61,865 nt of DNA. It comes from Desulfobacula sp. GTDB taxonomy: Bacteria; Desulfobacterota; Desulfobacteria; Desulfobacterales; Desulfobacteraceae. Within the stretch, counting starts at the first letter, position 1, and each line of letters starts with the position of its first letter. Under the pieces are notes generated by a model. The model had not been told where the DNA came from. It worked only from the letters and a program-made list of their open reading frames with translations, and did not search any database. Shown piece by piece: positions 2,068 through 43,975 of the stretch. The position numbers were made by a program, and so were the translations under genes. The DNA lies in the NCBI RefSeq assembly GCF_030145145.1, contig NZ_JAQYWD010000039.1, forward strand, positions 1-61,865, in the 5' to 3' direction.

Positions 2068-2082
2068 GGAAAGCCTCCTGAT

Positions 2083-9246: not shown

Positions 9247-9263
9247 CTCTTACTCCTTTTTCA

Positions 9264-9761: not shown

Positions 9762-9785
9762 TTTATAATTCCATCCTTCACTTGA

Positions 9786-12238: not shown

Positions 12239-12726
12239 CTGGCACCTTCCTTTTTGGGCAGCACTGCCTTTAATAAATCTGTAAAAAGGGCCAGGGCAAG
12301 GATTAAACAGCCCAATGCCACGGCCAGGGTAAACGGATAATAAATAATCCGCAGGGTTTCGGAAACTTCATTTGCATTTTTCAGGGTCAATGCCTTTTGA
12401 ACAATCTGCCAGGAAGCGATCAAGAAAAAAGTGCAGCAAACGATATGGTTGATAATGGAGATAATCCGTTTCAGCGGTTTGGGGTAGATGTTGACAAGGA
12501 CATCAACAGAAATATGGCCATTGGTAAGCTGGGTGTATCCAAGGGCAAAGGCCGCTACAACGGCCCCGGCATATCCCATAAGTTCAAAGGTTCCCCTGAT
12601 GGGAATATACATCTGTCGGATAAAAATGTTGGCACAGGTCAGAAGGATCATACCCAGAAGAAGGGCACCGCCGGTCAGTGTGAGCAGCTTATTCAAAAAC
12701 TTATTTATTTTCGTTAAAAGATCCAT
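12235..12726 (-). CDS. dctQ: TRAP transporter small permease (DctQ-like)
   Basis: 163 aa from the ATG at 12726, chosen over longer frames because GGAG lies six bases upstream and the protein then begins MDLLTKINKFLNK, a normal DctQ N-terminus. Four transmembrane segments are predicted by eye, with GYAGAVVAAFALGYTQLTNGHISVDVL in the middle being typical (only part is quoted as evidence: GHISVDVL). It lies between the binding protein and the large permease and overlaps the latter by four bases. It completes the membrane part of the importer. Confidence 0.88.
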   Translation of the reverse strand: MDLLTKINKFLNKLLTLTGGALLLGMILLTCANIFIRQMYIPIRGTFELMGYAGAVVAAFALGYTQLTNGHISVDVLVNIYPKPLKRIISIINHIVCCTFFLIASWQIVQKALTLKNANEVSETLRIIYYPFTLAVALGCLILALALFTDLLKAVLPKKEGAR

Positions 12727-12804
12727 GGGAGGCTCCGAGGTCTGGGGACGAGGGGACAAGATGGAACATCTGTCCCCCGTCAACCCAGTCAAATTACAAA
12801 GGGG

Positions 12805-13815
12805 TTATTGAATAAATGCTTTTATATCCTTGATGATCGCTTCTGCCGGAAGGCCTTTTTCATTGGCGTTCTTAATCCAGTTTTCAGTAATAAACTCAAG
12901 TTTGCTGTCCCATTTGGCTTTTTCATCAGCAGAAAAGGAGATAAATTCAACATTATGGGCTTCTTTTGACCAGGCAATGGCTTTTTGAATCTGGTCATCC
13001 ATATACGTTCCAGTCCAGAGCGATTGTTCTTCTTTCAGATCCATCATGACCTTTTGTACATCTGCCGGAAGTGCATTCCATTTTTGTTTGTTCATAATAA
13101 CGGCAAAGGGGTAGATGACCGTTTCGGTCATGGTGACATATTTGCAGTATTCAGCAAATTTAAAGTCCTTCATGACTTCCAGGGAAGAAAAAAGACCTTT
13201 GACGGTGCCTTTCTGCAATGCTTCAACCGTTGCCGGCATGGGCATTCCCACCGGGTTGGCGCCCCAGGCTTTCAGGATCTGTGCGGCACCACCGGAAGCT
13301 CTTAAAGACAGACCTTTCATATCATCCAGGGTTTTTACCGGCGCCTTGGTCATGACATTTCCCGGGGCATTGGCAAACATGGTCAGAACAACAACATCCT
13401 TAAAGGCTTGGGGTTGATACTTTTCATAGAGCTTGAGAAGGGCAAGGCTGCCGGTTTTGGCATCCGGGATGCCCAAGGGAAGGCTTGTGGCATTGGTGAC
13501 AATGAACCGGCCCGGCTGATATGCCATACAGATGTTCCCGATGTCGGCCTGGCCTGCAATAACACCGTCCATCATGCCTTTTGCTCCCAGAAGGGTTCCG
13601 CCGGGAAAGGTATTGATCATCACCTGTCCATTGGTACGTTTTTCTACTTCTACCTTCCATCGTTCCATTTGAACACAGGGAAATGTGGGTGCGGGAGGGA
13701 AATTGGCATAATTGAGTTTTATTTTACCGGCCATTACCGGCGCTTGAAATACCAGAAGACAAATGACAATCGTAAACAAAAACAAAGTTGCTGATACAAT
13801 AGATCGTTTTACCAT
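12805..13815 (-). CDS. dctP: TRAP transporter solute-binding protein (DctP-like)
   Basis: 336 aa with a clear signal peptide (positive MVKRS, hydrophobic core, cleavage probably after PVMA near residue 29). The mature part contains the conserved arginine region (LSLRASGGAAQILKAWGANP, about 172-191), where the Arg binds the substrate carboxylate, and PMPATVEALQKGTVKG. A strong AGGAGG precedes the ATG. It is a periplasmic binding protein for an organic acid. It is 81 bases downstream of Mo enzyme 2; a weak hairpin lies in that gap. The ligand cannot be read from sequence; the context suggests the acid degraded by this cluster. Confidence 0.92.
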   Translation of the reverse strand: MVKRSIVSATLFLFTIVICLLVFQAPVMAGKIKLNYANFPPAPTFPCVQMERWKVEVEKRTNGQVMINTFPGGTLLGAKGMMDGVIAGQADIGNICMAYQPGRFIVTNATSLPLGIPDAKTGSLALLKLYEKYQPQAFKDVVVLTMFANAPGNVMTKAPVKTLDDMKGLSLRASGGAAQILKAWGANPVGMPMPATVEALQKGTVKGLFSSLEVMKDFKFAEYCKYVTMTETVIYPFAVIMNKQKWNALPADVQKVMMDLKEEQSLWTGTYMDDQIQKAIAWSKEAHNVEFISFSADEKAKWDSKLEFITENWIKNANEKGLPAEAIIKDIKAFIQ

Positions 13816-13896: not shown

Positions 13897-16179
13897 TTAA
13901 CCGTTTTTTTCCTTTAACGCGGCCAGTATTTTTTCAGGTGTAATCGGCAGATCCTTAATCCTGACACCGACGGCATTATAGATGGCATTGGCTATGGCAG
14001 GCGCTGTTGGAACACATCCGGGCTCTCCAATGCCTTTGGCACCAAAAGGGCCGTCTTTGTCATCTGTTTCAATTACCGGGGCTTTGATTTTAACCGCATC
14101 TTTGGCTGTAAACAGTTTGTAATCCCGGAAGTTGGCATTCATGATTTCGCCATTTGCCACTGTCACTTCTTCTGTCAGGGCATACCCAAGCCCCATCACA
14201 ACGCCGCCATAGACCTGACCTTCAAGGAGTAAAGGATTGATGGCACGGCCGACATCATGGGCTGCCACGTATTCCAGTACCTCTACTTTACCGGTTTCTT
14301 CATCTACCTTGACTTTTGCGCCATGGGCGCCGAAAGAGTATGTCATGGACATATTCCCTTTTAGTTCCTTGCCCATGTTTTGATTGTCAGGATCATAAAA
14401 GTGTTCTGCCATGAGCATGTTACCACCCGGTGAAAAGTGGGCTTTTCTTAACAGTTTTCCAATGGGCATATTTTTTTCCGGGTTGCCTGTTACAAATACC
14501 ATCTTGTCCTTGAGCTCAATCTCTTCTGCAGGCGTTTCAAACAGTTTTGACGCAAAGTCCTGGATTTTCTTTTTCACTTTTTTGGCCGCACCTAATGCCG
14601 CATTACCGGCTACAAACGTGCTGCGGCTGGCATGGGCACCCACATCCCAGGGACAGATATCCGTATCGGAATGCACGACATTGATATCTTCGGCAAGAAG
14701 TCCGAGCTCTTCTGCCACGATCTGGGCGGTGATATTGTCCAAGCCCTGTCCCATGTCTGTGCCGCCGGTAAAAATATCAACCTTGCCGTAATCATCCATT
14801 TTTAAGATAGCACCACATCCGTCAGAACCGTAGATCCTTGCACCACCTCCCACATGAATTAAAGAAGCAATGCCCGTGCCCACGCCTTTTTCGCTTTTAT
14901 CCTTAAAGTCTAACTCTTTTTCAACCGATTCAATACATTCGGCAAGACCGCAGGAGGTTATTTTGAGTCCTTGGGGTGTTTCCTCTCCGGCATGGTTTTT
15001 GTTGATTTTCCTGAACTCAATACGATCAATACCGGCCTTTTCCGCCAGCATGTCTATGCTGCTTTCAATGGCAAATGTGGCCTGGGGATTTCCATACCCT
15101 CTCATGGCCTGGGAATATGTATTGTTTGTATAAACACATTTTGCAGTATATTTCACATTTTTAACCGTGTAAAGAGAACTTATCGGCATCAGCATAACAG
15201 AAGGGGTAGTGGCTCCCCAGGAGGTATGTCCACCGTTATCCAATACCATTCTCATATCCCTGAATGTCAGTTTGCCGGTCTTGTCGCATCCTTGTTTGAT
15301 ATAGATGATGGTCGGCTGTCTTGTTGACGTTGCCTTGAATTCTTCCACACGGTCAAACACCATTTTTACCGGTTTCCGGCAGGCATATGCCAGAAGAATG
15401 GCAATATGCTCGTAGGCATACGTATCTAATTTACTTCCAAAACCACCACCGATGGTCGGTTTGATAACCCTGACGCGTTTGTTTTTAAGACCCATGGCCT
15501 TTAACGCTTCAAGGAAGTCTTTCTGGGCAAGGGAAGGAATTTGTGTGTTGGTGTAAATCGTCAGGTTTTCGGATGCATCAAACAGTGCAACCGCTCCGCT
15601 GGTACCCATACAGCAGTGGGTAACCCATGTCGTTGTAAATCTGTCTTCCACAACAAAAGCAGATTCTTTTTCTGCTTTTTCCACATCTCCATAATGAATG
15701 TCCCAGGGCATTTTAAGTACATTTGATTTAAGATGGTCATGAACCAGGGGTGAATCTTTTTCCATGGCTCGTTCAGGATCAAAAATACCTTCAAGCTCTT
15801 CATACTCAACTTCAATCAGGTCAAGCGCCTTTTTGGCAATTTCCGGGCTTATGGCAGCAACCGCGGCCACTTCATCCCTGAAACAACTGACCTTGCCTTT
15901 TTTTATGGGGGGATTGTCCTTGATAAATCCCATTTTCATTTTTTCCGGAACATCCTCTCCAGTGAGAACGGCATGGACGCCTGGTAATGCCCGGGCTTTT
16001 GATGTGTCAATTTTAATGATATTGGCACTGGCATATTTGCTGTAAAGAATTTTTCCATATAGCATTTGCGGCAGCTTGATATCTTGAATATACGCTGCCC
16101 TTCCCATGGCTTTCTGGGCTGCATCCAGCTTGGGGATTCGTTTGCCGACCACACTGAATTCTCTTTTAGTGTTACTCAT
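13897..16179 (-). CDS. Xanthine dehydrogenase family Mo-binding subunit of Mo enzyme 2
   Basis: 760 aa from the ATG at 16179 (GGGAGG six bases upstream; protein begins MSNTKREFSVVGKRIPKLDA). A longer in-frame start would overlap the upstream gene heavily. Mo-cofactor motifs are complete: TIGGGFGSK, RGYGNPQATFAIES, TDMGQGLDN and PFGAKGIGEPG with the catalytic Glu at about 719. This is a canonical hydroxylase that would add oxygen from water to an N-heteroaromatic or aldehyde carbon. It is adjacent to a PaaK-like CoA ligase and HyuAB. The best context-based guess is hydroxylation of indoleacetyl-CoA (or indoleacetate) to the 2-oxindole derivative. Confidence 0.88.
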   Translation of the reverse strand: MSNTKREFSVVGKRIPKLDAAQKAMGRAAYIQDIKLPQMLYGKILYSKYASANIIKIDTSKARALPGVHAVLTGEDVPEKMKMGFIKDNPPIKKGKVSCFRDEVAAVAAISPEIAKKALDLIEVEYEELEGIFDPERAMEKDSPLVHDHLKSNVLKMPWDIHYGDVEKAEKESAFVVEDRFTTTWVTHCCMGTSGAVALFDASENLTIYTNTQIPSLAQKDFLEALKAMGLKNKRVRVIKPTIGGGFGSKLDTYAYEHIAILLAYACRKPVKMVFDRVEEFKATSTRQPTIIYIKQGCDKTGKLTFRDMRMVLDNGGHTSWGATTPSVMLMPISSLYTVKNVKYTAKCVYTNNTYSQAMRGYGNPQATFAIESSIDMLAEKAGIDRIEFRKINKNHAGEETPQGLKITSCGLAECIESVEKELDFKDKSEKGVGTGIASLIHVGGGARIYGSDGCGAILKMDDYGKVDIFTGGTDMGQGLDNITAQIVAEELGLLAEDINVVHSDTDICPWDVGAHASRSTFVAGNAALGAAKKVKKKIQDFASKLFETPAEEIELKDKMVFVTGNPEKNMPIGKLLRKAHFSPGGNMLMAEHFYDPDNQNMGKELKGNMSMTYSFGAHGAKVKVDEETGKVEVLEYVAAHDVGRAINPLLLEGQVYGGVVMGLGYALTEEVTVANGEIMNANFRDYKLFTAKDAVKIKAPVIETDDKDGPFGAKGIGEPGCVPTAPAIANAIYNAVGVRIKDLPITPEKILAALKEKNG

Positions 16180-16651
16180 TTTGCCCTCCCATTTTTTTGG
16201 CCGCCTCAACCGATTCAAATATCGGTATATATCCGGTGCATCTGCAGATATTTCCGGCAAGTGCATGCTGTATTTCTTCACGATTCGCATCTGGGTTTTC
16301 ATCCAGCAGCGCCTTGGAAGACATGATCATGCCCGGTGAACAGAATCCGCACTGGATGCCGCCGTTGTCCACAAAGGACTGCTGGAGCGGGTGCAATGTG
16401 CCGTCAGTTGAGGCAAGGCCTTCAATGGTTTCAATGGTGGTCCCGTCGGCTTCAATGGCCAGATAAAGGCAGGAATTCACCGCCAGTTTGTCAACAATAA
16501 CCGTGCAGGCACCGCACTCACCATTCCCGCACCCTTCTTTTGTTCCGATCAGTCCCATTTCTTCCCTGAGAAGATGCAGCAGGGTCCAATGGTCCTTAAT
16601 CTCATAAGAGATCTTGTCGCCATTTAATGAAAAAGATATAGTGGTTGTCAT
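16172..16651 (-). CDS. [2Fe-2S] small subunit of Mo enzyme 2
   Basis: 159 aa from the ATG at 16651 (protein MTTTISFSLNG; AGGAG 11 bases upstream). The longer frame would start inside the upstream gene. Two [2Fe-2S] clusters: Cys41, 46, 49 and 61 (GCGNGECGAC and NSC), and Cys101, 104, 136 and 138 (QCGFCSPGM and ICRCTGY). No extra C-terminal cysteines are present, unlike the small subunit of Mo enzyme 1. The end overlaps the large-subunit start by eight bases, indicating translational coupling. Confidence 0.92.
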   Translation of the reverse strand: MTTTISFSLNGDKISYEIKDHWTLLHLLREEMGLIGTKEGCGNGECGACTVIVDKLAVNSCLYLAIEADGTTIETIEGLASTDGTLHPLQQSFVDNGGIQCGFCSPGMIMSSKALLDENPDANREEIQHALAGNICRCTGYIPIFESVEAAKKMGGQNE

Positions 16652-16665
16652 GGGTAAAGTTTCTC

Positions 16666-17547
16666 CTAATTGTTCGCTCGTATTATGTTCATACATTTGA
16701 GACCCATCCTTTTTACATGGACCCGGACCATTTCTCGCCTGTGCCAGGCTTTGCCTCTGACAGAGTCCCTTACCTTGGATTCGTCAGCCGCAAGTTTTCC
16801 CGCCTCAATCAATAGATCTTCATTAATTTTTTTTCCGACCAGATAATTTTCCGCATCAAATGCCCGCATGGGGGTGGGGCCTGCGACTCCCAGGACAATT
16901 CTTGCCCGGGTGCAGGTCTCAAGATCATCATCCAATGTTAAAAGAACACCAATACCGACCAGGGGCAGCTCCATGGCGGCCCTGCGGCCAAATTTAGTAT
17001 AGGCGCTTCCGGTATGGGGCGCCTGGGCGGGAATGGTGATCTTTTTCAATATTTCGCCGGGCTTTAAAATGGTTTTATAGGGTGCCAGGAACAAGTCTTT
17101 GACATCTGAAGACCGTTCACCGTCAGGTCCGTGAAGCAGGGCGACCCCGTCCAGGGCAATCATGGGGACGGCCCCGTCGGCGGACGGCACCGCATTGATC
17201 AGGTTGCCACCGATGGTGCCGACATTCCTGACCTGTAAGGATCCGATATTGGAGACGGCATCATAAATGATGGGGTACTCGTTTTTAATCATGAGTGATT
17301 TTTCAAGGGTAGCATGGGTGACAAGGGCCCCGATGGACAGTTCTTTGGTGGCCTCATTTTTATGGAGTTCACTCATTTCTTTGATTCTTTTCAAAGAAAT
17401 CAGAAAGTCCGGTTCCATCCAGCCTTCTTTGACCTTCACAATCACATCTGTTCCCCCGGCCATGAATTTGGCTGTTTCACTATGCTGGCCATAAAAAGAA
17501 ATGGCCTCTTCAACGGTTGTGGGGGATAAGTATGTAAATGGTTTCAT
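16666..17547 (-). CDS. FAD-binding subunit of Mo enzyme 2 (CoxM-like)
   Basis: 293 aa, the standard length without insertion. FAD-binding motifs are KFMAGGTDVIVKVKEG (27-42) and RNVGTIGGNL (about 107-116). Directly after IGGNL the chain continues NAVPSADGA, so the [4Fe-4S] loop found in the FAD subunit of Mo enzyme 1 is absent; this subunit should use ordinary acceptors in the oxidative direction. AAAGGAA precedes the ATG. Order FAD, [2Fe-2S], Mo follows transcription. It lies 14 bases after the CoA ligase gene. Confidence 0.92.
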   Translation of the reverse strand: MKPFTYLSPTTVEEAISFYGQHSETAKFMAGGTDVIVKVKEGWMEPDFLISLKRIKEMSELHKNEATKELSIGALVTHATLEKSLMIKNEYPIIYDAVSNIGSLQVRNVGTIGGNLINAVPSADGAVPMIALDGVALLHGPDGERSSDVKDLFLAPYKTILKPGEILKKITIPAQAPHTGSAYTKFGRRAAMELPLVGIGVLLTLDDDLETCTRARIVLGVAGPTPMRAFDAENYLVGKKINEDLLIEAGKLAADESKVRDSVRGKAWHRREMVRVHVKRMGLKCMNIIRANN

Positions 17548-17561
17548 ATGGGTTCCTTTCT

Positions 17562-18851
17562 TTAGCTGCGGTTATCAAAGATCCGCTTGGTTTTTCCTTC
17601 AAACCGCGGCAATTGGCCATAGGCACAAATTTGTGCATCACAGCTGACCATGATCTTTGAGTGAACAGTTTTCTTTATTTTGTTCCTGATATCATCCGTA
17701 TTTGCCAAATCAAATCCCTGAACGGCTTCAGCCCTGATGGTCATGTAATCCTTGCCGTCATCCTTTCTTTCAAGATGAAGCTGGTACTCACTGCCCACCT
17801 CGGGAATGGACGACAATACCTCATCAATCTGGCCGGGATAGATATTCACCCCTTTTAAAATGATCATGTCATCGGAGCGTCCCATGATTTTATCATGCAT
17901 GAAAAGGATGTTTCCACAAGAGCAGGGGGCACTAATCTTTCGGGTAAGATCCCTTGTCCGGTAGCGCACGAGGGGAGCCGCTTCTTTACACAGGCTTGTG
18001 ACCACCATTTCACCGACTTCGCCGTCTTGAACAGGTTCCAGGGTATCCGGGTCTAAAATTTCAAGAATAAACTTGTCTGCCCAATAGTGAATCCCTTCAT
18101 GTTTTGGGCAGTCAAGGCCGGTCCCAGGGCCGTAAAGCTCTGTCATACCAGTGATGTCAAACATATCTTCAAGCCCAAGAAGATCTTTGATCTTCGCATG
18201 CATGGCCGCACTGCACCGCTCTGATCCTAAAATGATTTTCTTTAAATTGATCTTGTCTTTCAGTCCCCTTTTATGGACCTCTTCGGCCATGAGAAGCGCC
18301 ATGGATGCGGTACAGCAAAAGACAGTGGCCTGCAGATCCTCAAGGAACTGGCATTGCATGTCAATATTGCCGGGGCCTATGGGAATGGCCATGGCACCGA
18401 ACCGTTCACATCCCATCTGAAATCCCATGCCGGCGGTCCAGACACCATAGCCAACGGCAATCTGTACCCTGTCCAGTTGCGTCAGGCCGGCCAATTCATA
18501 GCACCGGGCAAACATGTCAAACCAGTCATCCAGATCTTTTTGGGTATAGGCAAGGACTTTCCGTTTTCCCGTGGTGCCCGAGGAGGCATGAATGCGGACC
18601 ACCTGTTCTTCCGGTACGGACAAAAGGGGCAATGGATAGCCGTCCTTTAGATCCCTTCCCGTGGTAAAGGGAAGCTTTGACAGATCATCGAGACTCTTGA
18701 TGTCATCCGGGGTCACGCCGGCGGATTCAAATTGTTTTTTGTAAAAGGCGGATCCATTATAGGTATGGGCAACAGTCCACTTCAGTCCGTCCAATTGATG
18801 GTCAAAAATTTGCCCTGGATCATTAAACTGGGGCATAAAGGTTTTTTTCAT
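17562..18851 (-). CDS. PaaK-like aryl-CoA ligase (candidate indoleacetate-CoA ligase)
   Basis: 429 aa from the ATG at 18851, which has GGAG six bases upstream; a GTG four codons earlier is also possible. AMP-forming ligase motifs: HASSGTTGKRKV (about 87-98), TGMTELYGPG, VRYRTRDLT and DDMIILKGVNIYP, typical of phenylacetate-CoA ligases. It forms a CoA thioester from an aryl acid with ATP. It sits between HyuB and Mo enzyme 2. In Aromatoleum, the indoleacetate-CoA ligase IaaB is a PaaK relative encoded with the same set of partner enzymes, so indoleacetate is the leading substrate guess; phenylacetate or other aryl acetates remain possible. Confidence 0.88.
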   Translation of the reverse strand: MKKTFMPQFNDPGQIFDHQLDGLKWTVAHTYNGSAFYKKQFESAGVTPDDIKSLDDLSKLPFTTGRDLKDGYPLPLLSVPEEQVVRIHASSGTTGKRKVLAYTQKDLDDWFDMFARCYELAGLTQLDRVQIAVGYGVWTAGMGFQMGCERFGAMAIPIGPGNIDMQCQFLEDLQATVFCCTASMALLMAEEVHKRGLKDKINLKKIILGSERCSAAMHAKIKDLLGLEDMFDITGMTELYGPGTGLDCPKHEGIHYWADKFILEILDPDTLEPVQDGEVGEMVVTSLCKEAAPLVRYRTRDLTRKISAPCSCGNILFMHDKIMGRSDDMIILKGVNIYPGQIDEVLSSIPEVGSEYQLHLERKDDGKDYMTIRAEAVQGFDLANTDDIRNKIKKTVHSKIMVSCDAQICAYGQLPRFEGKTKRIFDNRS

Positions 18852-18870
18852 TTTCTGCTCCACTAAGTGC

Positions 18871-20598
18871 TCAATTGTTATTCTTACGACATTGTCGGGT
18901 CGCAGTAAGATCGAGTGTTAAGGTGTCTGGCTCAATAATCACACCATAATCCACTTTCGCTCGTTCAATACTTACATAGCCATATTGTACATCTTTTTCC
19001 ACGGCTTCTGGGTCCCGTTCAAAGGGGTCGCCGTACCCACCGCCACCGGCGCTGACAAAGGAAACGGTATCACCCGGCTCACAGAAGGTCAGACCGCTGG
19101 GGTCTGCATTCTCACCGTTTTTCAAGAATTTGGCCAATGATCCGTCTTTCCCTCCAAAGATGCCCTCAGGCGGATAAATATAGCGCCCTGCCTGCACGGC
19201 AATGGATGTCGTTCCCGGAGAATTATCCCCATCGTCGGGTGATCGGATGATCATCTGTCTGCCAATCCCCCCCCGCTGCTTACCAGGACCCCCTGAGTCT
19301 TGTATCAGGCTTCTTGATTCAACGATCATGGAGGTATCGCTTTCAAGAATTTCGACAGGCGTATTTGCGCCGTTGGCCGGGAAAATGGCACAGTGATGAC
19401 CGTCAAGCCGGGAAGAGGCTCCCATGCCGCCGCCGCGGATAATCATGGTATGCCAGGGTTTGCCGTTGGCAAAAGTCCCATGGAAAATATTGGTCTGGGC
19501 AGGCGTTCCGCCCGATCCGGCAATAATATTATCCGGTGCGGCCTGGCCCAGTGCCTTGAACACCATCTCCGTCATGAAATGACCCACCACCATCCTGGCA
19601 GCCACAGCTGCAGGGAACTTACAATTGACAACAGAGCCGTGCGGTGCTGACATGGTGATCGGCCGAATCGCACCGTCATTAATGGGGACGCCAGGGTCAA
19701 AAGCAGACTTAACCGCCATGAACACATAGGCATAGGTAAAATTGTAAACAACATTAACCCCCCAAGCCACCTGTTTGGAGGTACCGTCAAAATCAACATG
19801 GATCTCGGATCCGTCCACGGTTACGGTGAGTTTGATGGGGATGTCCGATTTATCGCCCGCACCTTCGATAATCCCCTCGTGGGTATAGGTACCGTCTTTA
19901 ATCCCTTCAATGGAAGCGCGCATGCTTTTCTCGGTCCGGTCAAAAATTTCGTCAGCAAGGTCATCTAAGGTATCAAGCCCTTCGTCTTCCATCATCTCTA
20001 TGATTTTCTGGGAACAGACATGGTTGGCCGCGACCTGGGAACGGATATCCCCGTCAAATTCCTTGGGTGTCCTTACATTCCAGCGGATCATGTTCACAAT
20101 ATCCTGGTTGAGCTTGCCTGCATCATAGAGTTTGGTCAACGGGATATAAAGACCTTCGGCATAAACATCCCGGTTGTCCGAGGCAGTTCTGCCGCCGATG
20201 TCGGTGTGATGGAAAATACATGCCGTAAACGCCACAACCCTGCCTTTAAAAAAGATGGGACTCCAGACGCAGACATCATTTAAATGCCCGGCCAGGAGCC
20301 ACGGATCGTTCACAATAAACACATCCCCGTCATGATAGTCTTCCAGGGGTATGGATTTGACAATTTTTTTCATGCCCAGGGCCATGGCACCGGCCATTCC
20401 CGGTGTGCAAAGCGTTCCCTGGACCAGTTCCTGTCCCCGGCTGTCGGTGAACATGCAGGTATAATCGTGGGCATCCCGTAACAGGCTTGAAAAGGCGGTC
20501 CTGATAACGGATGCATCAGATTCATCCACAATGGAGACCAGGCGTTTCCAAAGGATTTCCAATGTAATCGGGTCGAATTCTCTTTTTAAATTTTTCAT
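18871..20598 (-). CDS. hyuB: Hydantoinase B / oxoprolinase family subunit (HyuB-like)
   Basis: 575 aa, the typical HyuB length. Family stretches include DPITLEILWKRLVSI at the N-terminus, VNDPWLLAGHLNDV, FHHTDIGGR with metal-ligand-like His/Asp residues, and GGGYGDPFERDP near the C-terminus. A GGAGG precedes the ATG, which overlaps the HyuA stop by four bases. HyuA and HyuB together form ATP-dependent enzymes that open cyclic amides (hydantoins, 5-oxoproline) or carboxylate ketones. Next to a Mo hydroxylase that could make a 2-oxindole, lactam-ring opening is the most natural role. Acetophenone/acetone carboxylase-type activity is the alternative. Confidence 0.9.
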   Translation of the reverse strand: MKNLKREFDPITLEILWKRLVSIVDESDASVIRTAFSSLLRDAHDYTCMFTDSRGQELVQGTLCTPGMAGAMALGMKKIVKSIPLEDYHDGDVFIVNDPWLLAGHLNDVCVWSPIFFKGRVVAFTACIFHHTDIGGRTASDNRDVYAEGLYIPLTKLYDAGKLNQDIVNMIRWNVRTPKEFDGDIRSQVAANHVCSQKIIEMMEDEGLDTLDDLADEIFDRTEKSMRASIEGIKDGTYTHEGIIEGAGDKSDIPIKLTVTVDGSEIHVDFDGTSKQVAWGVNVVYNFTYAYVFMAVKSAFDPGVPINDGAIRPITMSAPHGSVVNCKFPAAVAARMVVGHFMTEMVFKALGQAAPDNIIAGSGGTPAQTNIFHGTFANGKPWHTMIIRGGGMGASSRLDGHHCAIFPANGANTPVEILESDTSMIVESRSLIQDSGGPGKQRGGIGRQMIIRSPDDGDNSPGTTSIAVQAGRYIYPPEGIFGGKDGSLAKFLKNGENADPSGLTFCEPGDTVSFVSAGGGGYGDPFERDPEAVEKDVQYGYVSIERAKVDYGVIIEPDTLTLDLTATRQCRKNNN

Positions 20599-22700
20599 CG
20601 TTTATCCTCCCCGTCAACGATATTAATCCAGATGAAACCGAAGTCATCCACCCTTGCAGTGGTATCCTCACCGATGACAATGGTGGATTCCCGTTCCTCG
20701 ATAATGGCCGGCCCGTTGAACTGGGCATTGGGGAAAAGTTTTGCCCGGTCATAAACGGTAAAGGGGAGATAGTCCTTTTTAATGACGGAAAATGCCGGCC
20801 GCTGCCCTTTGATACACGCTTGAATATCCCTGTTCTCTGTGGACAGCTTTGAAATGGTAAATGGTTTTTTCGGCAGGCTTGCCCGCACTTTAAAGGTGAC
20901 AAATTCCACGGGAGATTCAGCACTGCTCCTGCCGTACAGCCTTTTATATTCATCATCAAACATGGTTCTGATGTCATCTTTTGAAAACTGCTGAAACTCT
21001 TTTTGTTCAATGCCCAGGTCGATCTCGGCACCCTGGCCGACAAACCGCATCAACAGCGTTCGTTCAAAAATAACATCATCACCGGTCTGGGCGCCTTCCA
21101 GAATTTTAGCCGCCTCATTTTCAAGCTGGCTGAAAAGGTCTTCAATCTCATTAAAATCGGCTTCTTCCAGTACTTTCCGGTGACTTCTTGACATATCAAA
21201 CGCCACGGGAGCGGTAAAGAAACCCAGGGCCGATCCAACACCGGCAAGGGGCGGTACAAGGATGGATCCGGCACCGATTTTCTTGGCAAGCCCGTAAGTG
21301 TGGACGGGTCCTGCTCCGCCAAAAGCGGTGACAGTAACGATATTTGGGTTACCGCCCTTTTCTGCAATATGGGTTTTTGCCGCTGCCGCCATGGTTTCGT
21401 TGATCAAATCGTGAATACCAAAGGCCGCCTCCACCATGGTGGTTCCCAGGGGCCCGGCAATCTTCTCCTGTATGGCTTTTTTGGACAATTCTATATCCAG
21501 CCGCATGGTGCCGCCCAGAAAGAAGTCGGGATCCAGATATCCCAGGACCAAGTCGGCATCGGTAACGGTTGGGTTCTCACCGCCCTGGCAATAGGCCGCA
21601 GGTCCGGGATCCGCACCAGAGCTTTCAGGGCCTACCTGGAGCAGTCCCATCCGGTTAATATGGGCAATGGAACCGCCGCCGGCCCCGATTTCCATCAAAT
21701 CAACAACCGGCACCTGTATGGGCAGCCCGCTGCCTTTTTGAAACCGCTGGACCCGGCCGACCTCAAAGGTGGACACCAGTCCTGCGTGGCCGTCCTGGAT
21801 CAGGCAGGATTTGGCGGTGGTCCCACCCATGTCAAAGCAGAACATATCTTTAATATTGAACATTTTCCCGTAATACTGGGATGCAATCACGGCTGCCGTA
21901 GGTCCGGATTCAATGATCCTCACCGGAAAATCCTTTGCGGTTTCCACCGAGGTGATCCCGCCCGAAGAAAGCATGATAAACAGTTTGCCGCCAAAACCGA
22001 TGGTTCCCAGTCTGTTCACCAGTTTATTCAAATACCAGTAGGTGATGGGTTTGACATAGGCATTCACCGATGTGGTGCAGGTCCGTTCATATTCCTTTAT
22101 TTCCGGAAGCACCTCAAACGAACTGGAAAGAAACAACTCCGGCACTTCCCGTTCAATGATCTCTTTTATCTTTCGTTCATTGACCGGGTTTTCATAGGAG
22201 TTGATAAGGCAAACGGCAATGGATTCCACGCCGTCTTTTTTAATTTTTTCAACCAGGGCCAACACCTCTGGTTCATCCACATCTTTGAGTATCCGGCCGT
22301 CAAAGGTCATCCGCTCGTCAATTTCATACCTGTCTGACCGGGGTACGATGGGTTCGGGGTATTCGCTGAAAATATCATAGGCATCATACCGTTTTTCCCT
22401 GCCCAGTTCTAAAACATCTCTGAATCCCCTGGTCGTTATCAATGCTGTTCTGGCACCTTTTCTTTCAATGATGGCATTGATGACCAGGGTGGTGCCGTGG
22501 ATAATCTCCTCGACATTGTCCAAAAATCCGGGAAGGACTTGTGTCAGTTCCCGAATGCCCTGTTCAATGGCATTCGATGGATCCGAAGGGGTGGTCAGGC
22601 ATTTGTTCGTATGAAATTCTCCTGTTGTATTATTTACAAGGACAAAATCTGTAAACGTGCCGCCGATATCGCATCCCAGTCGATAGGTTTCCTGTTCCAA
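20595..22700 (-). CDS. hyuA: Hydantoinase A / oxoprolinase family ATPase subunit (HyuA-like)
   Basis: 701 aa, the family length. The start is TTG at 22700 with AAGGAG eight bases upstream. The N-terminal ASKHA-fold ATP-binding motif is GCDIGGTFTDFVLV (residues about 9-22); a second is FDMGGTTAKSCLI, and AFGGAGPVHTYGLA lies further on. It hydrolyses ATP to activate a lactam or a carbonyl for attack. It is 11 bases downstream of the mutase gene and coupled to HyuB. In the proposed pathway it would open the oxindole ring of oxindole-3-acetyl-CoA to an aminophenylsuccinyl product. Confidence 0.9.
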   Translation of the reverse strand: MEQETYRLGCDIGGTFTDFVLVNNTTGEFHTNKCLTTPSDPSNAIEQGIRELTQVLPGFLDNVEEIIHGTTLVINAIIERKGARTALITTRGFRDVLELGREKRYDAYDIFSEYPEPIVPRSDRYEIDERMTFDGRILKDVDEPEVLALVEKIKKDGVESIAVCLINSYENPVNERKIKEIIEREVPELFLSSSFEVLPEIKEYERTCTTSVNAYVKPITYWYLNKLVNRLGTIGFGGKLFIMLSSGGITSVETAKDFPVRIIESGPTAAVIASQYYGKMFNIKDMFCFDMGGTTAKSCLIQDGHAGLVSTFEVGRVQRFQKGSGLPIQVPVVDLMEIGAGGGSIAHINRMGLLQVGPESSGADPGPAAYCQGGENPTVTDADLVLGYLDPDFFLGGTMRLDIELSKKAIQEKIAGPLGTTMVEAAFGIHDLINETMAAAAKTHIAEKGGNPNIVTVTAFGGAGPVHTYGLAKKIGAGSILVPPLAGVGSALGFFTAPVAFDMSRSHRKVLEEADFNEIEDLFSQLENEAAKILEGAQTGDDVIFERTLLMRFVGQGAEIDLGIEQKEFQQFSKDDIRTMFDDEYKRLYGRSSAESPVEFVTFKVRASLPKKPFTISKLSTENRDIQACIKGQRPAFSVIKKDYLPFTVYDRAKLFPNAQFNGPAIIEERESTIVIGEDTTARVDDFGFIWINIVDGEDKR

Positions 22701-22711
22701 TTTTTATCTCC

Positions 22712-24364
22712 TTAGTAAAAATCCGGTTCGTTCCATTCACCAAATACATCCCTGAAAACACCGGCCATTTCTCCCACCGTGGCATAGGCATGGCAGCAGT
22801 TTACCAGGTGCGGCATGACGTTATCACTGCCCCTGGCTGCCGTCTCAAGATCTTTAAGGCTTTTTGTTACCGCTTTGTTGTCTCTGGTCCTGCGAAGTTC
22901 TTTTAAGTTGGCCTTGGATTTTTCAGCCCATTCCTGATTGTATTCATGCAGTTCAACCGCTGTTTTTTCCGTTTCCTGGTCTGGTGAATCTCCTGATTCC
23001 GAGGTCGGGACAACGCCTACTTTTCTGTATTCTCCGGACTGGAGGCCTTTTTCATATTCATAGGCCTGTCTGGAGACTTTTCTTTGAATAAACCCTTCAG
23101 AGATACTCTTGGTCATGCCGCCCCATTTTTGGACTTCTTTCATCTCCTCAACGATTTTTTCTTCCATCTCAAGGGTGAGGGTTTCAATAAAATAGGAACC
23201 TGCCAGGGGATCTACGGTGTCTCGTAATCCCACTTCATCCATGAGCATTTCAAGGGTCCGCAAAGAGAGCAGCGCCGATCTTGGGGTGGGGATGGTATAG
23301 GCTTCGTCAAAAGAACACAACGCGGTTGTCTGTGCACCGGACAAGGCCGCACCCAGTGCGTAATAGGCCCCCCGCATGATATTGTTTTCCGGCTGTTCCT
23401 TGGTGAGACCGGAGCCGCCGCCACCAAACAACCCTCTTAAGAAAAGGGTTTTCTTGTTGGTGACACCATATTCAGTTTTCAGCATTTTTGCCCAGAGTTT
23501 TCTGGCAGCCCTGAATTTGGCAATCTGTTCCCAGAGATTTCCATATACATTGAAATTAAAGGAAAACCGTCCAACAAAATCTTCCGGTTTGATGCCCCTT
23601 GCTGTGACATTGTCAATATAGGCTTTGGCAATCTCAAAGGCATAGGCGATTTCCTGGGCCGGTGTGGCACCGGATTCACGGATATGGTACCCACAGATAC
23701 TGACCGGGTTGGATTTGGGTAGTTCCTTCACTGCATATTCAATAGAGTCTCCAACCAGCCTTACCCCATGTTCCACCGGGAATATCCATGCACCGCGGCC
23801 GATCATTTCCTTTAGGATATCGTTCTGGGGTGTTGTGGAAATCTGGTCTTTGGAATATCCGAATTTTTCTGCTGCTGCCTGGTACATGGCCATCATGATG
23901 GTGGCCACCGCATTGATGGTTAATCCGGACCCAATTTTGTCCAGGGGAATACCGGCAAAAGCGGTTTCAAAATCTTTTAATGAGTCAATGGCCATGCCAA
24001 CACGGCCGACTTCCCCTTCCGCCAGGGGATGATCCGAGTCATAGCCCATCTGTGTGGGCAGGTCAAAGGCCACATTCAATCCGTTCTGGCCATTGGCAAT
24101 CATCAATTTAAACCGTTCATTTGTCTCTTCCGGGGTGCCGAATCCCGTGTATTGCCTTGTGGTCCAGGCCCGACTGCGATAGCTTTGAGGATGAATACTC
24201 CTGGTAAAGGGGTATTCTCCAGGGGCTCCTAAATCTTGTTCATACGTGAAACCCGCTTTTTTAAGGTCTTCAGGACCGTAGACCGGTTTTACCCTTATTC
24301 CGGACTGGTAGGTCACCTCTTTTATTGCGCCTCTTTCATCCTTGGTATATTTTGCAACACCCAT
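22712..24364 (-). CDS. B12-dependent acyl-CoA mutase large subunit (methylmalonyl-CoA mutase family)
   Basis: 550 aa: the substrate-binding TIM-barrel part without the cobalamin domain, which is the next gene upstream. Numbering is offset by 17 throughout from P. shermanii MutB, so the key residues are easy to place: Arg70/Tyr72 (RQYTGFG; MutB Y89), Gln180 (Q197), Arg190 (R207, binds the substrate carboxylate) and His227 (H244). All are kept, so the substrate should be a dicarboxylic acyl-CoA. Flanking residues differ: RGAW replaces RNTY after Arg190, and HIRES replaces HMQEA. GAGAGG precedes the ATG. The context suggests a (2-aminophenyl)succinyl-CoA/(2-aminobenzyl)malonyl-CoA mutase rather than propionate metabolism. 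Confidence 0.9.
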   Translation of the reverse strand: MGVAKYTKDERGAIKEVTYQSGIRVKPVYGPEDLKKAGFTYEQDLGAPGEYPFTRSIHPQSYRSRAWTTRQYTGFGTPEETNERFKLMIANGQNGLNVAFDLPTQMGYDSDHPLAEGEVGRVGMAIDSLKDFETAFAGIPLDKIGSGLTINAVATIMMAMYQAAAEKFGYSKDQISTTPQNDILKEMIGRGAWIFPVEHGVRLVGDSIEYAVKELPKSNPVSICGYHIRESGATPAQEIAYAFEIAKAYIDNVTARGIKPEDFVGRFSFNFNVYGNLWEQIAKFRAARKLWAKMLKTEYGVTNKKTLFLRGLFGGGGSGLTKEQPENNIMRGAYYALGAALSGAQTTALCSFDEAYTIPTPRSALLSLRTLEMLMDEVGLRDTVDPLAGSYFIETLTLEMEEKIVEEMKEVQKWGGMTKSISEGFIQRKVSRQAYEYEKGLQSGEYRKVGVVPTSESGDSPDQETEKTAVELHEYNQEWAEKSKANLKELRRTRDNKAVTKSLKDLETAARGSDNVMPHLVNCCHAYATVGEMAGVFRDVFGEWNEPDFY

Positions 24365-24400
24365 TGTTTACCTCTCTTAAGTTTTCGGAAATGATCCGGA

Positions 24401-24799
24401 TTATTCAAACAGGTTGTTCATGCCGGTAATAATGTCCTCAAAAGAGGTTCCGCCGGGAAACACAGCTGCCACCCCCATTTCTTTGAGTCCAGGAATATCC
24501 TGGTAGGGAATAACGCCTCCCACGGTCAGGCGGATATCATCAAGCCCCTGTTTTTTCATCATGGTGATGAGTCGTTTACAAATGGGCAGATGTGCCCCGG
24601 ACATAATGCTTAACCCGATGATATCCACGGCTTCCTGGGTGGCTGTCTGCACGATTTGTTCAAGGGTCTGGTGGAGACCTGAATAAATCACTTCCATGCC
24701 TGCATCCCTTAAGGCCAGGGCCACAATTTTGGCGCCCTTGTCATGTCCGTCAAGACCGGGTTTTGCAATCAATACCCGAATTTTGTGTGTTGTTTCCAT
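24401..24799 (-). CDS. Cobalamin-binding subunit of the acyl-CoA mutase
   Basis: 132 aa, the usual size of a free B12-binding domain. The DxHxxG motif is DGHDKG (His19 is the lower cobalt ligand), followed by [10 protein letters not shown] and the VGGVIP loop, all hallmarks of base-off/His-on cobalamin binding. It lies 36 bases upstream of the mutase catalytic gene and 18 bases downstream of meaB. It acts with the 550-aa subunit as a heteromeric mutase. Confidence 0.93.
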
Positions 24800-24817
24800 C
24801 AGTCATTTTCCTTTTAA

Positions 24818-25783
24818 TTATTTTAAAATAATCATTGTATTGACCACATGTTCTGCCGCACTGATCGGATCCATCTCATGGGTCTGTATTTTTTTTAAAA
24901 CGGCGTCATATTTTGGAGAGGCTTCCATGAATGAGCGAATTTTTTCCAGGGTCAGATCATTTAGCAAGGATTTGAAATAGAGGGTTTCCTGGGTTCTTTT
25001 CGTTTGATCGGTCAGGCTGTTTTTTTTCAAGAAATCAAAATGGGACAAAAACGTGTCAGCCAGTTCATCAACACCGGTTCCGTCCAGGGCCTTGGTCTTG
25101 AGTACCAAAGGCGTCCACTTTGGGGATGGATTTGACAGTTGTGTTCCCCTGTTGCGCATCCCGATCATCATGGTCAGTGCATGCACAGACGCGTCAGCAC
25201 CCGGCCGGTCACATTTGTTGACAATAAAGACATCCCCTGTTTCAAGAATACCGGCCTTGACGGCCTGGATGCCGTCTCCTGTTCCGGGGATGCTGACGAT
25301 CCCGGTTGAATGGGCAAGGCTTGCAATGTCAAACTCTCCTTGCCCGGCACCCACGGTTTCAATCAGGATGATGTCATACCCCATGGCATCCAGGACAATG
25401 GCTGTATCTTTTGTGGCCCGGGAAAGACCCCCCGTCTGTCCCCTTGATGCCATGGACCGGATAAAAACGGCTTCATCTGTTGCATGGCGCTGCATGCGCA
25501 GCCGGTCTCCTAAAATCGCTCCCCCGGAAAAAGGACTTGACGGGTCCACGGCAATGACCGCGATCCGTTTATCCCGTTTACGAAATTCCAGGATCAAGGC
25601 ATCCATCAGGGTGGATTTGCCCACGCCGGGTGATCCGGTAATGCCGATGATAAAGGCGTTACCGGAATGGGGATACAGCTGTTTGAGCAGCGGAAAGGCT
25701 TTGGGACTTCCCTCTTCAATCAGTCGGATCATCCGTGCACCGGCTCTCTGGTTTCCCAGCAGTATGTCCTTTATTTCAGGCAC
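24818..25783 (-). CDS. meaB: MeaB/ArgK-type G-protein chaperone of the mutase
   Basis: 321 aa. P-loop GSPGVGKSTLMDAL (about 51-64), AVDPSSPFSGGAILGDR, ETVGAGQGE (switch region) and NKCDRPGAD (base recognition) identify the MeaB GTPase. It protects B12 mutases and gates cofactor loading. Its start overlaps the end of the regulator gene by eight bases and it is followed by the mutase small subunit. A dedicated chaperone in the same operon shows that the mutase is a functional part of this pathway. Confidence 0.93.
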   Translation of the reverse strand: MPEIKDILLGNQRAGARMIRLIEEGSPKAFPLLKQLYPHSGNAFIIGITGSPGVGKSTLMDALILEFRKRDKRIAVIAVDPSSPFSGGAILGDRLRMQRHATDEAVFIRSMASRGQTGGLSRATKDTAIVLDAMGYDIILIETVGAGQGEFDIASLAHSTGIVSIPGTGDGIQAVKAGILETGDVFIVNKCDRPGADASVHALTMMIGMRNRGTQLSNPSPKWTPLVLKTKALDGTGVDELADTFLSHFDFLKKNSLTDQTKRTQETLYFKSLLNDLTLEKIRSFMEASPKYDAVLKKIQTHEMDPISAAEHVVNTMIILK

Positions 25784-26483
25784 TTTTTTTGTTGCCTTCC
25801 TCTTTTTCCAATTTGTTCAAAACAGCAGCCTTTCCTTTGATAATGTGCTGCCTTACGAGGTGTTCAACCGTTTTGCCATCCCGGTTTTTAATGGCCTCAA
25901 GCATTCTGATATGGTCGTCGTTGCTCTGCTCTGCATATCCTTCCTGTTTAAGAATAATCTGCCGGAACCTGGAGATCTGGGCCCGAAGCTGGTTGATCAT
26001 TTTGATCAGCCGTGGGCTTTTGCTCAAACTGTAGAGAAGATCATGAAATTCCGTATTGATTCGCTGAAGGTTGGCAGTGTCCTTTTCTCCCAGGCAGTTC
26101 TGGTATTCCATCATCTTTTTTTCCAATGGAATCAGATCCTTTTCCTGGTGGTTTTCAGCAGCAAGTTTTGCTGCATATGCCTCAAGCACACTCCGGATAC
26201 CAAAGGTCTGCTCAATTTCATTTTTTGTGAGTGTCACTACCTGAAATCCGCCGGAAGGAATTTTTTCAATCCAGTCCTCTCTTTCCAGCTTGTGCAGGGC
26301 TTCCCGCAACGGTGTCCTGCTGATCCCCAGCATATCGGCAAGCTTGCTTTCCACAAGCCTTGCACCCGGCTCAATGGTCTGGTCAATGATGGCATTTTTC
26401 AAATAGTCAAATACGTTCTGACCTAATGATTTTCTTTCCTTAAATTTGTTGTCCAGCTTCATTGGACTATAGTTCCCATGCAA
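25776..26483 (-). CDS. GntR family regulator, FadR/FCD type
   Basis: 235 aa. The N-terminal winged helix (about residues 20-85) contains KSLGQNVFDYLKNAIID and LADMLGISRTPLREALHKLE, the GntR HTH signature. The C-terminal part is an all-helical FCD effector domain that usually binds a small carboxylic acid and a metal (EFHDLLYSLS and HIRMLEAIKNRD segments). A start at 26462 is also possible. It lies inside the operon between the CoA-transferase and meaB. The two TGTATACTGTATACA palindromes at about 27.75 and 30.81 kb fit FadR-family operators and make this protein the likely pathway repressor. Confidence 0.88.
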   Translation of the reverse strand: MHGNYSPMKLDNKFKERKSLGQNVFDYLKNAIIDQTIEPGARLVESKLADMLGISRTPLREALHKLEREDWIEKIPSGGFQVVTLTKNEIEQTFGIRSVLEAYAAKLAAENHQEKDLIPLEKKMMEYQNCLGEKDTANLQRINTEFHDLLYSLSKSPRLIKMINQLRAQISRFRQIILKQEGYAEQSNDDHIRMLEAIKNRDGKTVEHLVRQHIIKGKAAVLNKLEKEEGNKKSA

Positions 26484-26495
26484 TTATGCTTTCTG

Positions 26496-27686
26496 TTAAA
26501 CAATTCCTTTTTCCTTAAACTCAGCAAGCGTTGCCGCATCATATCCCAGGAGGTCACCATAGATTTCCTGGTTTTGTTCGCCAAAACGGGGGGGAAAGGA
26601 CAATTTCTGATCATGTTCTTCAAGAAAGGGCGTCATGTTGGGTGGCGGCGCAAGGGTCACCTTTGTGCCTGTTTTGGGATCTGTTGACGTGAGAATCCGT
26701 CTTGCGATTAAGGGATCTTCCAGTACTTCATTGATTTTCTTGATTTTTGAAATGGGTACGGTAATCGCCGTGAAGAGCTCAATGAGTTCTTCCGAGGTGT
26801 GCTGTTCCGTAATGGCCGTAATGGCGGTGTTCAGGTTGTCGACATCTGCAATTCTTCCCTTGTTTTTCTTGTATTCTTCCTTTGCAAGGGATTTGAACAT
26901 GTCCTGGGAAACCATGGATTCCCACTGACGGTCATTGCCCACGGCCAGATAAACAAATCCGTTGCTGGTTTTATAAACCGATACCGGGCTGAAAAATTCA
27001 TGGGTGTTTCCCCGGCGGGAAACGGTTGCACCAAAGCTTTTTGTAAGGGAAATGGGGGTGGTCATCCAGGAGACTGTAGATTCAAACATGGAAAGGTCAA
27101 TGCGGGTACCTTCGCCTGTGACAGATCGTTTGAAAAGGGCTTTCATCAACAGCCCGTATCCGTGTTCACTGGTTCCCATGTCCGGCAGCGGAATCCCCAG
27201 AACCTGGGGATCTCCATCGGCTTCTCCCGTGAGTTCCATTAACCCGGATCTTGCCTGGAGGATGGGATCATAGGCGCCTTCATTGGAGTCCGGTCCAAAT
27301 CCGGTGAGACCCAGCCAGATGATATCGGGTTTAATTTCTTTCATTATGTCATAGGCCATGCCCAGCTTGGTGTAATTCTTGGGCAATTGGTTGGTGATGA
27401 AAATATCAACATCCAGCTTTTGGACCAGTTCTTTAAATATCTCCTGGCCCTTGGGGTCGGCCATATTCAAAGTTAATGCTTTTTTCCCGGAGTTGATGCA
27501 CAGAAAATAGGCGTTCATCCGTTCTTCATCCAGAACGTTTTCTCCGATAAACCGGTTTGGATCTCCATATATCGGATGTTCAAGGCGGATGACATTCATC
27601 CCGTCCTGGGCCAGCCTGTAAGTGAGATAGGGGGCAACGGTTGCCTGTTCAAGTGATAGTACCGTAAGGTTTTTAAAAATTTTCAT
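26496..27686 (-). CDS. Family III (CaiB/BaiF) CoA-transferase
   Basis: 396 aa from the ATG at 27686 (GGAGG five bases upstream; protein MKIFKNLTVLSLEQ). Family III marks: LEQATVAPYLTYRLAQDGMNVIRLEHP at the N-terminus, Asp169 in PLPDMGTSEHGYGLL (the nucleophile that carries the acyl anhydride; same number as in formyl-CoA transferase), and GEGTRIDLSMFES. It moves CoA between acids without ATP. First gene of the long operon, behind a palindromic operator. In Aromatoleum indoleacetate degradation, IaaL is a family III transferase acting on phenylsuccinyl compounds; a similar role is proposed here. Confidence 0.9.
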   Translation of the reverse strand: MKIFKNLTVLSLEQATVAPYLTYRLAQDGMNVIRLEHPIYGDPNRFIGENVLDEERMNAYFLCINSGKKALTLNMADPKGQEIFKELVQKLDVDIFITNQLPKNYTKLGMAYDIMKEIKPDIIWLGLTGFGPDSNEGAYDPILQARSGLMELTGEADGDPQVLGIPLPDMGTSEHGYGLLMKALFKRSVTGEGTRIDLSMFESTVSWMTTPISLTKSFGATVSRRGNTHEFFSPVSVYKTSNGFVYLAVGNDRQWESMVSQDMFKSLAKEEYKKNKGRIADVDNLNTAITAITEQHTSEELIELFTAITVPISKIKKINEVLEDPLIARRILTSTDPKTGTKVTLAPPPNMTPFLEEHDQKLSFPPRFGEQNQEIYGDLLGYDAATLAEFKEKGIV

Positions 27687-27728
27687 AAAGGCCTCCATGG
27701 GCAATGGCTAAAGGTTGTCCTGCGGTGA

Positions 27729-30720: not shown

Positions 30721-30789
30721 GGGAGACATCCTTGATTTTAAGTTATATGGACGTTAAAAAAAAGCCATGAAATGCGGGTTTCATGACGG

Positions 30790-31666: not shown

Positions 31667-31688
31667 ATTATTTTTCTCCGTAAAAGGG

Positions 31689-43861: not shown

Positions 43862-43975
43862 TATGACATCTCCTTTTGTATCGGTTGTCATCATCATCCT
43901 GTCCAAATTCCTGATTTACATGTTACCGTAGCAGTTACCAGGGGGAATGAAAAGAGTTGTCATATTATTTTGATG

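Follow-up and report, generated by a model that had tools for sequence, protein, structure and literature searches.

Gene content of the cluster

The stretch of DNA considered here (the window), 61,865 nt of Desulfobacula sp. (NZ_JAQYWD010000039.1, assembly GCF_030145145.1), carries between 33578 and 814 a run of 27 co-directional genes on the minus strand, the largest gap being 364 bp. The run combines enzyme types of anaerobic indoleacetate (iaa) degradation with an MmdA-like carboxyltransferase and an acyl-CoA dehydrogenase, and the marker enzyme of that pathway, IaaF, was not found in it. Read from 33578 down, the order is IorA, IorB, MmdA-like carboxyltransferase, acyl-CoA dehydrogenase, CaiB-type CoA-transferase, GntR/FadR-type regulator, MeaB, small and large subunit of an acyl-CoA mutase, HyuA, HyuB, PaaK-like ligase, the Mo hydroxylase subunits XdhB, XdhC and XdhA, the TRAP transporter genes DctP, DctQ and DctM, the genes HcrB, HcrC and HcrA of an enzyme like 4-hydroxybenzoyl-CoA reductase (HBCR), an epimerase-like gene, MoCF, YqeB, a thiolase, a saccharopine-dehydrogenase-like gene and, at the low-coordinate end, a class III aminotransferase. 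Families were assigned by hidden Markov model (HMM) scans, with bit scores set against the cut-offs of the models. A first-pass annotation had proposed an iaa operon at 13897-27686, naming the ligase, Mo hydroxylase, HyuA/HyuB, mutase with MeaB, CoA-transferase and regulator. Open reading frames and HMM scans agree with each of these names and with their location on one strand, and the tight spacing claimed there is borne out (-131 to 36 bp between CaiB and XdhA). Its interval proved too narrow, the co-directional run being 814-33578, and the IorAB, MmdA-like, acyl-CoA dehydrogenase, TRAP, HBCR-like and thiolase genes lie outside it.

The ligase, Mo hydroxylase, HyuAB-type lactamase, CoA-transferase and B12 mutase of the run are of types shared with the Aromatoleum iaa pathway; for the ligase, the Mo hydroxylase and the CoA-transferase, which is of family III, the match is one of family, with predicted substrates. 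The PaaK-like, IaaB-like acyl-CoA ligase (17562-18863) scores 403 bits with TIGR02155 (cut-off 646). The Mo hydroxylase consists of a FAD subunit (16666-17547; NF043083, 224 bits, cut-off 310), a [2Fe-2S] subunit (16172-16696, with a likely start near 16651; NF043084, 193 bits, cut-off 217) and a Mo subunit (13897-16302, with a likely start near 16179), whose best solved relative by sequence is the alpha chain of HBCR (1rm6_A, 413 bits). HyuA (20595-22700; 701 aa) and HyuB (18871-20598; 575 aa) would be the alpha and beta subunits of an ATP-dependent lactamase of two subunits only; the nearest HMMs are those of caprolactamase, with scores below the cut-off of 1000 (CapA model 525 bits, CapB model 291 bits). 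The mutase comprises a large subunit of IaaGH type (22712-24364; TIGR00641, 525 bits, above the cut-off of 303.8) and a B12-binding small subunit (24401-24799; TIGR00640, 148 bits, above 57.45), followed by its predicted chaperone, the GTPase MeaB (24818-25783; TIGR00750, 341 bits, above 240.75). The GntR/FadR-type regulator (25776-26483) and the IaaL-like CaiB-type CoA-transferase (26496-27704) were recognized by HMM.

Kinship with indoleacetate clusters

Relatives were collected by scanning genome contigs with the mutase, and the best 80 of 258 were kept as loci. By their titles, these are mostly metagenome genomes of Desulfobacula, Desulfotignum, Desulfobacterales, Desulfobacteraceae or Deltaproteobacteria. 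Five alphaproteobacterial-type loci that bear IaaF (L075, L078, L082-L084) served as stand-ins for Aromatoleum aromaticum. In the published description, anaerobic indoleacetate degradation is marked by IaaF, which oxidises and decarboxylates benzylmalonyl-CoA and whose orthologues carry GGG in place of the YEG of other acyl-CoA dehydrogenases (PMC8360864). The same text states that the iaa operons of strict anaerobes include electron-transfer flavoprotein (ETF) and that the electron acceptor of IaaF in denitrifiers is unknown (PMC8360864). Among 38 dehydrogenase frames in the loci, 28 read GGG, nine YEG and one AGG; the last belongs to an IaaF-like dehydrogenase of a Syntrophorhabdaceae genome (L066:3079-4233). 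Because the GGG frames sit in the mutase stretch, in Desulfobacula-type loci (L012, L015, L022, L023, L024), in other Desulfobacterota and in the five alphaproteobacterial-type loci, the loci that bear them count as iaa clusters on the published marker. In L075 and L078 the genes run HyuA, HyuB, IaaF, mutase, Mo hydroxylase and CoA-transferase, which would fit the letters F, GH and L as used in PMC8360864. The CoA-transferase of the window is 35-36% identical to that of L075, L078 and L082. Another layout was seen in L041, L043, L045, L050, L054 and L057, where TRAP genes immediately follow the mutase; in L045 and L050, HyuA also comes after XdhA. A search of plasmids with the alphaproteobacterial-type iaa mutase returned 427 records, all below 60% identity and at 44-47% among the matches listed.

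The IaaF-bearing Desulfobacula locus L012 shares the window's order of the other genes at 72-90% identity: HyuA 87%, HyuB 88%, XdhA 90%, XdhB 84%, XdhC 88%, the mutase subunits 89 and 85%, ligase 81%, CoA-transferase 86% and MeaB 72%. These identities, and the recurrence of the same genes next to the mutase across many of the 80 loci, agree with the first-pass view that the association is beyond chance. Indoleacetate as the predicted substrate of the pathway is well supported. The mutase type and the kinship with L012 speak for this part of the annotation, whereas the supposed identity with the Aromatoleum set did not hold, as IaaF with GGG was not found. Unlike the window, L012, L015 and L022-L024 all have IaaF and, adjoining it, ETF genes, for both subunits except in L022, which has alpha alone; their five genomes are without an MmdA orthologue. 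The window differs from the A. aromaticum operon and from the predicted sulfate-reducer operons (PMC8360864) in having neither IaaF (GGG) nor an operon ETF, and in holding MmdA, a YEG dehydrogenase, IorAB and an HBCR-like enzyme in its cluster.

The mutase is 55-59% identical to those of the five alphaproteobacterial-type loci and 35% identical to the methylmalonyl-CoA mutase (MCM) of the same genome, so the case in which it would group with propionate enzymes, named in the first-pass annotation as a refutation, did not arise. The loop RTHCQTSGWSLT of the genome's own MCM corresponds to RGLFGGGGSGLT in the window enzyme, and GGGG stands at the remodelled loop in all 17 other relatives aligned, which may provide room for an aryl group. 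With its low identity to the own MCM and its remodelled loop, a propionate-type MCM was rejected as its identity. The residues corresponding to Tyr89, Gln197, Arg207 and His244 of MCM are kept, and the enzyme is therefore expected to bind a free carboxylate, in contrast to 2-hydroxyisobutyryl-CoA mutase. The latter was likewise rejected: there Ile and Gln replace Tyr89 and Arg207, and the window has Tyr72 and Arg190.

Proposed replacement of IaaF

No IaaF with GGG was found in the window cluster or among the ten best own-genome matches to the IaaF of L012. The own genome gives 14 such matches, and the motif was read in the ten best, the four weakest being left out. These ten, the window enzyme included, are 25-36% identical and read YEG (four), GEG, VEG (two, one of them from a frame end), LEG and WLG (two). 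ETF is likewise missing among the 27 genes of the cluster. EtfA occurs in 20 of the 22 loci with IaaF at at least 60% identity, and no ETF match was found in the loci of 28 genomes with MmdA, many of these loci being short.

The place of the missing enzyme appears to be taken by two genes that lie 71 bp apart. The MmdA-like carboxyltransferase (29161-30729), the proposed (2-aminobenzyl)malonyl-CoA decarboxylase subunit, has a carboxyltransferase domain over nearly its full length (PF01039, 592 bits). It shares this domain with the methylmalonyl-CoA decarboxylase/propionyl-CoA carboxylase beta family, but scores below the cut-off of TIGR01117, used here to recognize the alpha subunit of Na+-pumping methylmalonyl-CoA decarboxylase (719 bits, cut-off 998.8). 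The acyl-CoA dehydrogenase (27944-29089), proposed to act on 3-(2-aminophenyl)propionyl-CoA, reads YEG at residue 363, not GGG. The two genes adjoin each other, whether inside the mutase cluster or away from it. In L106 and L107 a divergent enoyl-CoA hydratase lies beside the pair, as the beta-oxidation of aminocinnamoyl-CoA would need. At L104:6118-7683, on a contig other than that of the mutase, a FAD-dependent oxidoreductase adjoins the pair. The window MmdA is 50% identical to a paralogue in its own genome, which adjoins a biotin carboxyltransferase; this carboxyltransferase, at L103, contains a biotin carrier. The genome also has one full-length OAD_beta gene (PF03977), for a membrane beta subunit as in Na+-pumping methylmalonyl-CoA decarboxylase, unlinked to the cluster. 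OAD_beta was considered as evidence for sodium pumping and dropped, being present with both IaaF and MmdA, and solved structures failed to tell carboxylase from decarboxylase, as similar scores came from carboxylase beta chains and from a hypothetical decarboxylase. Among the papers listed in the literature searched, which covered few subscription papers, no publication linking MmdA to indoleacetate degradation was found.

Distribution of IaaF and MmdA

The distribution of the two enzymes was analysed in 50 genomes with the mutase, drawn from the 80 loci, with IaaF scored at at least 60% and the MmdA orthologue at at least 71% identity. IaaF was found in 19 and MmdA in 27, both in none, and neither in four (G006, G010, G015, G049); Fisher's test, which ignores relatedness, gives p 3e-10 for this exclusion. 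A dehydrogenase homologue at at least 73% occurs in 25 of the 50, namely 24 genomes with MmdA and G010, which has neither enzyme and carries a YEG dehydrogenase fragment at 92%; no IaaF genome has it. A second sample, 146 genomes drawn evenly from the order, overlaps with the 50 (coordinates are identical at several places) and contains 27 genomes with the mutase. MmdA was found in 15 genomes, 14 of them mutase-positive, and IaaF in nine, all mutase-positive; none has both, and four mutase genomes have neither. The sole MmdA genome without the mutase, G125, is 83% complete and lies in 740 contigs. In the further 30 genomes MmdA was sought genome-wide and IaaF in the locus stretch only. MmdA at 72% was found in one (L063), matches at 51-53% in nine and no match in 20; since the own paralogue stands at 50%, the nine were counted as paralogues. 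An IaaF-type frame occurs in 13 of the 30 (that of L066 with AGG), none of which has MmdA above 53%. Over all 80 genomes, 30 of them with IaaF sought in the locus stretch only, IaaF was seen in 32, MmdA in 28, both in none and neither in 20.

The difference between IaaF and MmdA is not one ancient split. A mutase tree of 79 rows, 21 of which have no label, shows seven label changes, at least five of them forced by supported branches, with a bootstrap range of 6-8; this careful tree replaced an earlier quick one with six changes, at least four of them forced. Both modes occur within a closely related Desulfobacula-type group. The IaaF of L012 is 76-79% identical to that of L041, L049, L050 and L053 and 60-61% to that of L031 and L037, whereas its mutase shows the reverse, with 72-76% to the former and 79% to the latter. 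These opposite trends suggest that IaaF was re-acquired by transfer. The epimerase-like protein was also tried for telling the modes apart and given up, as it is seen in both modes and missing in both: the window and L134 (MmdA type) have its gene, which also lies next to the L031 cluster (IaaF type) and was not seen in L121 and L133 (IaaF type) or in L122 and L123 (MmdA type).

Upper and lower ends of the cluster

At the high-coordinate end lie IorA (31689-33578; TIGR03336, 637 bits, cut-off 651), the predicted alpha subunit of an arylpyruvate (indolepyruvate-type) ferredoxin oxidoreductase, and IorB (31094-31777), its beta subunit, which is below the cut-off of the NCBIfam IOR beta models and whose listed start is probably too early. 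IorA at at least 75% occurs in 10 of the 80 loci, many of which stop short of its place. The pair suggests an entry from indolepyruvate. A HpcH/HpaI (CitE-like) lyase is encoded divergently from IorA on the plus strand (34020-34949), and an enoyl-CoA hydratase lies outside the cluster at 43082-43906.

Below the Mo hydroxylase, the TRAP transporter DctP/DctQ/DctM (10937-13815, by HMM) would probably take up the acid. It is followed by the HBCR-like Mo enzyme HcrB/HcrC/HcrA (6952-10790), a candidate 2-aminobenzoyl-CoA reductase (deaminating). HcrB shares with 4-hydroxybenzoyl-CoA reductase (1rm6) the extra four-Cys loop ([4Fe-4S]), although the subunits are below the cut-offs of the three NCBIfam HBCR models (616 vs 995, 198 vs 405 and 165 vs 258 bits). 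An HBCR-like protein of Desulfatiglans anilini is described as the putative 4-aminobenzoyl-CoA reductase (PMC7500099). By analogy, the window enzyme may turn 2-aminobenzoyl-CoA into benzoyl-CoA, a guess with good precedent. The next genes encode a methylmalonyl-CoA-epimerase-like protein (6529-6951; TIGR03081, 96 bits, cut-off 115), a MoCF_biosynth-domain protein related to the Mo cofactor (5523-6560; PF00994) and YqeB, predicted to act in Mo hydroxylase maturation (4552-5364; TIGR03309, 358 bits, above 220). The thiolase (3283-4476; PF00108/PF02803), proposed for the last step to 2-aminobenzoyl-CoA, is 47-51% identical to that of L075, L082 and L083 and 66-68% to one inside the clusters of L029, L030, L034, L036 and L046. 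The last two genes, recognized by HMM, encode a saccharopine-dehydrogenase-like protein (2083-3231) and a class III aminotransferase (814-2067). Downstream stretches were fetched from 14 relatives. In eight (L121-L125, L131, L133, L134) TRAP genes are followed by Hcr genes, and six of the eight run on to the aminotransferase gene, while L124 and L131 stop short. The remaining six (L126-L130, L132) are without the whole Hcr-to-aminotransferase block, and some have TRAP, MoCF or YqeB. The pair at 814-3231 is conserved at the cluster end in six of the 14 and perhaps serves tryptophan transamination feeding IorAB. In L031 the Hcr genes stand next to the CoA-transferase gene in divergent orientation; farther on, the same strand carries IorAB and the epimerase-like gene (L135).

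Proposed route and alternatives

Gene content, homology, the failure to find IaaF and the complementary distribution were observed directly. From them we infer the substrate, the reactions and the split step: the window probably carries a variant iaa cluster in which the IaaF step is replaced by biotin-dependent decarboxylation and ordinary dehydrogenation. In this route, indoleacetate would enter by the TRAP transporter and be activated by the ligase, or IorAB would convert indolepyruvate to indoleacetyl-CoA. The XdhABC-type Mo hydroxylase would form 2-oxindole-3-acetyl-CoA, HyuAB would open the lactam with ATP, the CaiB-type transferase would shift CoA from one carboxyl of (2-aminophenyl)succinate to the other, and the B12 mutase would yield (2-aminobenzyl)malonyl-CoA. 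In Aromatoleum and, to judge from the genes present, in many Desulfobacterales, this compound is oxidised and decarboxylated in one step by IaaF. In the window, MmdA, with a biotin carrier encoded elsewhere, would decarboxylate it, and the YEG dehydrogenase would oxidise the arylpropionyl-CoA to 2-aminocinnamoyl-CoA via an ordinary ETF; beta-oxidation and the thiolase would then lead to 2-aminobenzoyl-CoA. A fuller version, in which the decarboxylase pumps sodium and conserves energy, the dehydrogenase is ETF-linked, IorAB feeds in indolepyruvate from tryptophan, HBCR-type deamination gives benzoyl-CoA and the whole module was swapped repeatedly with IaaF plus ETF, can be put forward only tentatively.

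Several observations weigh against the split step. MmdA scores below every curated decarboxylase cut-off, propionyl-CoA carboxylases belong to its family, and no biotin carrier or pump subunit is encoded within the cluster; OAD_beta occurs in 44 of the 50 genomes whatever the mode and does not separate the modes. The dehydrogenase is less exclusive than MmdA, with a 64-70% homologue in six IaaF genomes (G037, G039, G041, G043, G044, G046), and three MmdA genomes are without it at at least 73%: in G050 it is 57% identical and stands beside CaiB, G021 has a short contig, and G030 has MmdA without a dehydrogenase at that place. Neither IaaF nor MmdA was seen in 4 of the 50 genomes and in 16 of the further 30, where the search for IaaF covered the locus stretch. 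ETF does not mark every IaaF cluster, as seven more distant IaaF-type loci (L065, L066, L075, L078, L082-L084) are without it. The own dehydrogenases L091 and L092, 25-26% identical to IaaF, read WLG, so that another decarboxylating dehydrogenase may act instead of the split step. According to PMC5214803, the lactamases predicted for indoleacetate group together inside the hydantoinase branch. The window HyuA is hardly closer to the full-length HyuA of the alphaproteobacterial-type loci (366-412 bits, 33-36%, by blastp) than to N-methylhydantoinase (362 bits, by phmmer, a different program), and this comparison does not tie HyuAB to the Aromatoleum-type clade.

It could also be supposed that the pathway is the ordinary one, with an unrecognised IaaF elsewhere in the genome, and that MmdA and the YEG dehydrogenase serve, e.g., glutaryl-CoA or branched-chain acid breakdown. 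Both proteins come from broad families, in some genomes the pair is located apart from the mutase cluster, and the homologues in the six IaaF genomes would fit as well. However, none of the ten best own matches reads GGG, the MmdA orthologue is almost confined to mutase-positive genomes of the order (14 of 15) and never accompanies IaaF, and glutaconyl-CoA decarboxylase chains match MmdA weakly (5e-25 to 1.5e-28); this explanation is improbable. Slightly less probable again is the degradation of another N-heteroaromatic acid by the same chemistry, with a different substrate for MmdA-type and IaaF-type clusters. Sequence alone cannot give the substrate, and HyuA is only 33-36% identical to its counterparts in the alphaproteobacterial-type loci. 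Against it stand the 87-90% identity to the IaaF-type L012 in HyuA, HyuB, mutase and XdhA, the repeated switching of types on the tree, the presence of IorAB, which by family convert arylpyruvates to arylacetyl-CoA, and the carboxylate-binding Arg retained in the mutase. By family, the mutase, MeaB, the epimerase-like protein and MmdA also resemble propionate enzymes, and the run might be read as a propionate or hydantoin cluster beside an unrelated Mo hydroxylase. This is very improbable: the genome has its own MCM with epimerase-like and MeaB-like neighbours (L002), the MmdA paralogue is the one that adjoins a biotin carboxyltransferase, and the window mutase is distant from the own MCM, with its loop remodelled.

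Significance

IaaF is the odd enzyme of the indoleacetate pathway, and its strictly complementary replacement by two enzymes of common types would show how anaerobes avoid the electron-acceptor problem. The split step could also let them save energy from the decarboxylation. MmdA would mark a form of auxin degradation that searches based on IaaF overlook, accounting for 14 of the 27 mutase genomes in the order-level sample. The cluster further yields testable claims for the HBCR-like enzyme and for the link of IorAB to tryptophan.

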